From: Rhodospirillaceae bacterium
Lineage (GTDB): Bacteria > Pseudomonadota > Alphaproteobacteria > SP197
Assembly (NCBI GenBank): GCA_002722885.1
Contig: PBNE01000021.1
Coordinates: forward strand, 1-64,000
Direction of reading: 5' to 3'
DNA: 64,000 nucleotides
Each line of letters begins with the position of its first letter. Position 1 is the stretch's first letter. Below the pieces are notes generated by a model. That model made no database searches and had not been told where the DNA came from. It saw only the letters and a program-made list of their open reading frames with translations. This document shows, piece by piece, positions 3,857 to 4,863 of the stretch. A program made the position numbers and the translations under genes.

Positions 3857-3975
3857 CGCGTGGATTGACCTGATTTTCCGGGCGTTTTTTGTGGCTTTCC
3901 ACGGCCCCGCCGGAGCCATGATTGGCACGGACAGAGAGCTATGAAAAGCTGCGCCCGCCCGACGAGGAAATCCGC

Positions 3976-4863
3976 ATGACCGCCAGCAATGCCGACGCCC
4001 AGACAGTGAGCGCACTCCAGAGCGTTTTGGTCGCGATGATCGATCCGATCGACCAGCTCTTTTTCCATTCCCGCATGCTGCGCGCCTGGGGCCACAACCA
4101 GGGCATGGCGCGCAATATGGAGTGGATCTTCAAGATGCAGCGCACCAAGGAACTGGTCGGTGTTCTGGCCGGCCTCGGCGGCGTGCCGACAAGCCGGCCC
4201 GCCAGAACACTCGACATCGGCGCCGACCCCCGGTCGATTTATCAGGCCGATGCCGCGCAAACTCGCTGGTTCCTTGAGGTTGTCGAGGGGGCCCACGCCC
4301 AAAGCAGCGATGAAGCAGCCCGTGCCGTGCTTGAGGACATCCTTGGCAAGGAATGGGCCGATCTGGCCGTCCTTGAGCAGGCTCTGGAGGATGGGTCTGT
4401 CGACGAAGAACCTCGCAACGCCAAGTTCCTGTTGCCCAAGCCCGGCGGTGCCGAAGCCGCGATCAAGGCGGCCAACATGGCCCTTGCAACCATGACCTCA
4501 GCGGTGAGCCAAATTTTCTTTCACAGCCTGATTTTCGATGGTCAGGGACGCAAGGAACTCGCCGAACGAGAGCTGAACGGTGCGCTCTCCATGATGTATC
4601 GCTCCGAAGCCCTGCTGGAACGGCTGCTTGATCTCGGCGGCATCCCCTCTGCTGAAGGACATGGCGCGATTACGCTTCACAAAGATGAACAGGGCGCCGA
4701 TGCCGCAGCCTGCGCCGCCCATGATACGGCGATCAGCGCCCTCGAGTCGGGGCTTGCTCTGCTCGATGGTCGGATCGATCCGATGAGCCACAGCCTGGTC
4801 GACGGGATCCTGCGCGCCGAACGCGACGACCGTGCGGTGATTGCCGCGCGGCTGGCAGCCTGA
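3976..4863 (+). CDS. tandem bacterioferritin-like protein with degenerate ferroxidase sites
   Basis: A 295-residue protein made of two similar halves, each resembling bacterioferritin: an LFFHSRM or IFFHSLI segment, later LGGVP or LGGIP. The ATG preceded by GAGGAAA is preferred to the upstream TTG of the ORF track. Aligning each half by eye with E. coli Bfr puts Met at both Glu18 positions, Arg at both His54 positions and Lys or Met at Glu51, so no normal diiron site can form. The haem-ligand Met52 position is Met in both halves (about residues 54 and 207). One Glu127-like residue survives in the first half. Ferritin-like fold is likely; iron oxidation is unlikely. Haem binding is inference. 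It heads an operon with acyl-CoA and metY genes. Confidence 0.65.
   Translation: MTASNADAQTVSALQSVLVAMIDPIDQLFFHSRMLRAWGHNQGMARNMEWIFKMQRTKELVGVLAGLGGVPTSRPARTLDIGADPRSIYQADAAQTRWFLEVVEGAHAQSSDEAARAVLEDILGKEWADLAVLEQALEDGSVDEEPRNAKFLLPKPGGAEAAIKAANMALATMTSAVSQIFFHSLIFDGQGRKELAERELNGALSMMYRSEALLERLLDLGGIPSAEGHGAITLHKDEQGADAAACAAHDTAISALESGLALLDGRIDPMSHSLVDGILRAERDDRAVIAARLAA

Follow-up and report, generated by a model that had tools for sequence, protein, structure and literature searches.

What does a bacterioferritin (Bfr) do once two of its subunits have been joined in one chain and the ferroxidase centres of both have gone? The question is raised by a gene near the start of the window, the whole 64,000-nucleotide stretch of DNA that was analysed here. 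A preliminary description, made by eye from the sequence, took its product for a two-domain bacterioferritin relative that has lost its diiron sites, keeps the methionine position that ligates haem, and serves some purpose other than storage. Bacterioferritins are the haem-binding members of the ferritins; their haem normally works inside the storage cage, and a conserved single chain devoid of ferroxidase centres would part haem function from iron storage. The lineage that carries the gene is alphaproteobacterial and mostly uncultured, and a search of the open-access literature found no description of a two-domain bacterioferritin.

Two bacterioferritin domains in one chain

The gene is a single fused open reading frame with no separate bfr gene beside it (Table 1). 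A TTG upstream, at 3922, would extend the frame; alignment of the orthologues favours the ATG as start codon. A scan for promoters and terminators around the gene found none. The tandem of two Bfr-type domains proposed in the preliminary description was borne out by several kinds of match. The Pfam Ferritin model (PF00210) scores 37.1 bits in the second half (cut-off 24.5); the TIGR00754 bfr model aligns in two stretches, one per half, at 76.2 bits, which is below its equivalog cut-off of 125.55; and in sequence searches of the PDB the meaningful matches are bacterioferritins, on both halves. Identity to bacterioferritin is roughly 20-28% per half.

An AlphaFold model built on a ten-sequence alignment consists of two clean four-helix bundles and a linker (pLDDT 93.0, pTM 0.88), with predicted helices at residues 8-37, 43-66, 85-109 and 113-139 of the N half and 158-189, 193-219, 238-262 and 269-294 of the C half. 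The ferritin fold anticipated from the sequence was thus recovered for the monomer. By Foldseek, a half of the protein superposes on solved bacterioferritins with TM scores of 0.75-0.82 by target length, and the pTM, high for two equal domains, is consistent with a defined mutual arrangement of the predicted bundles. Helix E, the C-terminal fifth helix of the Bfr 24-mer cage, is absent from both halves, both in the model and in the alignment with canonical bacterioferritins.

Table 1. Features of the fused gene and its product, in window coordinates
Feature	Coordinates	Strand	Basis or remark
CDS, two-domain bacterioferritin-like protein, 295 aa	3976..4863	+	stop codon included; orthologues align from ATG at 3976
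N-terminal four-helix bundle, residues 8-139, helices A-D, without helix E	3997..4392	+	AlphaFold; HMMER alignment to Bfr residues 4-137
Conserved linker, residues 140-157, motif AK-L-PK-G	4393..4446	+	K150, L152, P154, K155 and G157 invariant in orthologues
C-terminal four-helix bundle, residues 158-294, without helix E	4447..4857	+	AlphaFold; PF00210 at 164-287
Met21, replacing ferroxidase Glu18, N half	4036..4038	+	alignment to E. coli Bfr
Arg33 = Bfr Arg30 (dimer salt bridge), kept in N half only, invariant	4072..4074	+	alignment; pair from PMC12120770
Met54 = Bfr Met52 position, N half, invariant	4135..4137	+	orthologue alignment
Met173, replacing ferroxidase Glu18, C half	4492..4494	+	alignment to E. 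coli Bfr
Met207 = Bfr Met52 position, C half, invariant	4594..4596	+	orthologue alignment
Glu211 + Glu215 = Bfr Asp56 + Glu60 (dimer salt-bridge acids), invariantly kept in C half only	4606..4620	+	alignment

Lost ferroxidase ligands and conserved methionines

Residues were compared in ten orthologues, 44-63% identical to the window protein, whose 20 halves were aligned to E. coli Bfr (the numbering used below for Bfr positions). All by-eye assignments at Glu18, Glu51, Met52 and His54 proved correct in both halves: in the window protein E18 is replaced by Met21 and Met173, E51 by Lys53 and Met206, and H54 by Arg56 and Arg209 (N and C half, respectively). The loss of the diiron sites extends across the family, as the ferroxidase ligands E18, E51, H54 and E94 are gone from all 20 halves. 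Position 18 has become Met, Leu, Val or Ala, position 51 Lys, Gln, Met, Ala or Val, and position 54 Arg, Gln or Leu; in 51 canonical bacterioferritins placed in the same alignment, the four ligands are present in 51, 48, 47 and 48 sequences. E127 is retained in every N half and in six or seven of the ten C halves, H130 in three N halves only. Arginine at position 54 and the retained Glu127 could make a buried salt bridge where the diiron site used to be.

The position of Met52, the axial haem ligand in bacterioferritin, is Met in every one of the 20 halves, so that conservation in homologues, named as a check on the early reading, upholds both methionines. Just four columns are identical throughout (Q24, F26, residue 29 and M52), and within one protein the N half shares only about 19-30% identity with the C half; judged from the alignment, strict retention of Met52 at such divergence exceeds chance. 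Met also stands at these positions, where they can be read, in the damaged copies described below (G003, G014) and in what a truncation has left of the N half of another orthologue (G001). H28 is retained in 19 of the 20 halves. Both F26 and M52 belong to the haem pocket in a structure of M. tuberculosis BfrA (PMC2777505). The N halves also keep pocket residues 22 (Ile/Val), 23 (Asn/Asp) and 53 (Arg/Gln).

Salt bridges link R30 and R33 of one subunit to D56 and E60 of the other in Bfr dimers that bind haem (PMC12120770). All ten N halves keep R30 and R33 and have mostly lost D56 and E60, whereas all ten C halves keep acidic residues at 56 and 60 and have Leu at 30. With the basic set in one half and the acidic set in the other, a full set of bridges would be available only between an N and a C half. 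This cross-complementarity would fit an intramolecular dimer of the haem type, although it is only suggestive, a pattern argument rather than a measurement: given that a basic and an acidic set have each survived, chance alone would put them in opposite halves about half of the time.

Distribution, descent and genomic neighbourhood

The order was sampled by 16 genomes, all of one family. An orthologue of the fused protein was found in 13 of them, including a closed 3.4 Mb chromosome; its presence there and on named contigs (OY282363.1, for example) argues against a binning artefact. It was not found in the remaining three (G005, G011 and G013), and outside the order no fused form turned up among 385 class-wide and 399 phylum-wide genomes (about 780). 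The strongest candidates there, one in the class (G224) and two in the phylum (G531, G586), were adjacent separate bfr genes. A search of viral contigs for the fused protein found none. A contig search with the single protein as query gave no match; with the alignment as query it returned ten contigs from metagenome-assembled genomes, which by their lengths belong to members of the order counted above. One orthologue gave TAL-effector matches in which no domain passed; these were discarded as summed weak repeat matches.

In a tree of the separated halves, all N halves form one clade and all C halves another, and both together form one group (89/99). This suggests one duplication and fusion followed by parallel divergence, with an outer placement that is uncertain through long branches. 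The gene is under purifying selection: Nei-Gojobori (NG86) dN/dS between pairs of orthologues is 0.16-0.25, and third codon positions are the most variable. Two copies are damaged. One (L007, G003:C10) carries an in-frame TAG at the Trp38 position and is otherwise open, and the other (L008, G014:C302) has a frameshift in its C half.

A second, more degenerate family of two-domain Bfr-like proteins, of about 350 aa, occurs in the order (G001, G004, G007 and G009; loci L104:937-1980 (+), L100:946-2001 (+), L099:1393-2442 (-) and L115). It has Met52 in the C half only and has mostly lost the ferroxidase residues; AlphaFold, given a three-sequence alignment, reached a pLDDT of 52, too low for the model to be relied on. 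Judged by eye, a homocysteine S-methyltransferase-like gene lies beside it at two of these loci and a fatty-acid desaturase-like gene at one.

The fused gene in the window sits between a divergent rplM-rpsI pair and an enoyl-CoA hydratase gene that starts 12 bases downstream, itself followed by genes for a CoA-binding protein and an O-acetylhomoserine sulfhydrylase. No haem-related gene was recognised next to it. The preliminary description had noted the position beside these CoA- and sulfur-metabolism genes; a functional link to them was not supported. The same order without a bfr-like gene in between occurs in five genomes of the order (G001, G004, G006, G007 and G013) and, differently spaced, in alphaproteobacteria beyond it, while the clade of G001, G004, G006 and G007 has its fused gene outside the cluster. 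The neighbours are therefore ancestral and say little on function. In G007 the fused gene lies directly behind glnS; this copy (L040 9343-10227) has a GTG start that overlaps the glnS stop and a different N-terminus, as if a new start had been gained after relocation. Elsewhere in the window, next to rpsI, a gene for an MT-A70 family adenine methyltransferase (1292-2017, +) and one for a MunI-type restriction endonuclease (1997-2596, -; PF11407, E 5e-77) are likely a type II restriction-modification pair.

Canonical bacterioferritin scored above the cut-off in nine of the 13 genomes with the fused protein and in no further genome of the order; it was not found in the draft assemblies of the other four of the 13 (G002, G006, G009 and G010). 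The canonical Bfr of the window's own assembly (L002 / G000:C6:483693-484154) groups with one from another family (G077) and not with its own order; the assembly carries 8.7% contamination, and the contig in question may be foreign.

A candidate haem protein and its relation to known systems

The non-storage role proposed at the outset is supported by the Bfr fold, the loss of both diiron sites and the strict conservation of both Met52 positions. We suggest, at a probability of about one half, that the protein is a single-chain bacterioferritin dimer, lacking ferroxidase centres and helix E, that clamps one haem and does not store iron. In this scheme one alphaproteobacterial order would descend from an ancestor in which the gene for a Bfr subunit was duplicated and the two copies were joined. 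Both diiron centres would then have been erased as Glu and His gave way to Met or Leu, to Lys, Gln, Met or Ala, and to Arg or Gln, and helix E would have been dropped, so that a classical storage cage is probably no longer built. The two halves would pack against each other as the subunits do in the two-fold Bfr dimer that carries haem, with one b-type haem, or a related porphyrin, between Met54 and Met207. Small, soluble and with its haem bound by two methionines, the product would serve in electron transfer or haem buffering. Somewhat more tentatively, it might be described as a naturally occurring, soluble cytochrome b of bacterioferritin descent, its haem site moved from the cage interface into one polypeptide. 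If so, nature would offer a parallel to the helix bundles that have been designed to bind haem, and a compact system in which to study a bis-Met haem on its own.

The step from conserved methionine to bound haem, which is argued from alignment, is evenly poised. It has a precedent in Bfr2 of Magnetospirillum, a ferroxidase-poor subunit that binds haem (PMC6529640). Set against it are changes at pocket positions of the C half (N23 to Ser, Y45 to Leu, K53 to Tyr or Ala) and the fact that Met is also an ordinary hydrophobic packing residue. These same changes favour the main rival, a haem-free pseudo-dimer that keeps the Bfr dimer interface, uses the Met pair for packing and acts as a scaffold for binding or regulation. 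Conservation is highest around MMYRSEALLERLLDLGG, in helix B of the C half, and together with the conserved linker this likewise suggests a surface for protein contact. However, most core positions drift among I, L, V and M, whereas Met52 is held more strictly, F26 and H28 are kept along with it, and we regard such a scaffold as rather unlikely.

The single-chain haem protein must also be weighed against a non-catalytic partner that co-assembles with canonical Bfr in a mixed cage and supplies its haem sites, as Magnetospirillum Bfr2 does. Cages in which some of the subunits only bind haem have been described (PMC6529640, PMC12120770), and nine of the 13 genomes have a canonical Bfr in addition to the fused protein. 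Such assembly is nonetheless improbable for a protein that has helix E in neither half, has lost half of the salt bridges of the dimer interface, and is found in four draft assemblies without an identified canonical partner.

Less probable still is a cage of the mini-bacterioferritin type, in which six fused chains would form a shell of 12 bundles with six haems. The mini-Bfr signature comprises His29, Gly34 and Met52 without terminal extensions, and its conserved His and Met mark the dimer interface (PMC13168243). The fused protein has the His and the Met and, like mini-Bfr, no helix E, but at the Gly34 position the N halves have Ala or Ser and the C halves vary, and the diiron centre is absent. 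Finally, a gene decaying toward loss, to which the two damaged copies and the three genomes without a detected gene might point, is the least probable reading and largely refuted: ten orthologues, one of them on the closed chromosome, have long kept both their sequence and their length, and on this conservation, together with a dN/dS of about 0.2, a pseudogene was rejected.

The haem-protein reading of this lineage-restricted bacterioferritin variant is thus moderately supported, and the variant can be set beside several known systems. With Bfr proper (TIGR00754; E. coli 1BCF) it shares the four-helix bundle, the Met52 position, F26, H28 and a long B-C loop. It differs in its fused units, its sub-threshold TIGR00754 score, and its missing ferroxidase ligands and helix E, and on these last two counts it is not classed as a bacterioferritin proper. 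The hetero-bacterioferritin subunit Bfr2 (Magnetospirillum; SoBfr2 in Shewanella) is likewise a product of gene duplication with Met52 kept and the ferroxidase site impaired, although it is encoded by a separate gene, has helix E and forms a 24-mer beside a ferroxidase subunit. Mini-bacterioferritin of Ca. Methanoperedens carboxydivorans is also a bare four-helix bundle with conserved Met and His at its dimer interface, but it consists of one unit only, has a diiron centre as well as Gly34, and assembles as a 12-mer with coprohaem. A 306-aa PDB chain named bacterioferritin (9viw_A), to which the profile aligns weakly across both halves (E 3.6e-4 (A1) and 0.72 (A2)), might be a two-domain relative. 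What is new here is the union, in one chain without helix E, of two halves that both keep Met52 and are both ferroxidase-negative.
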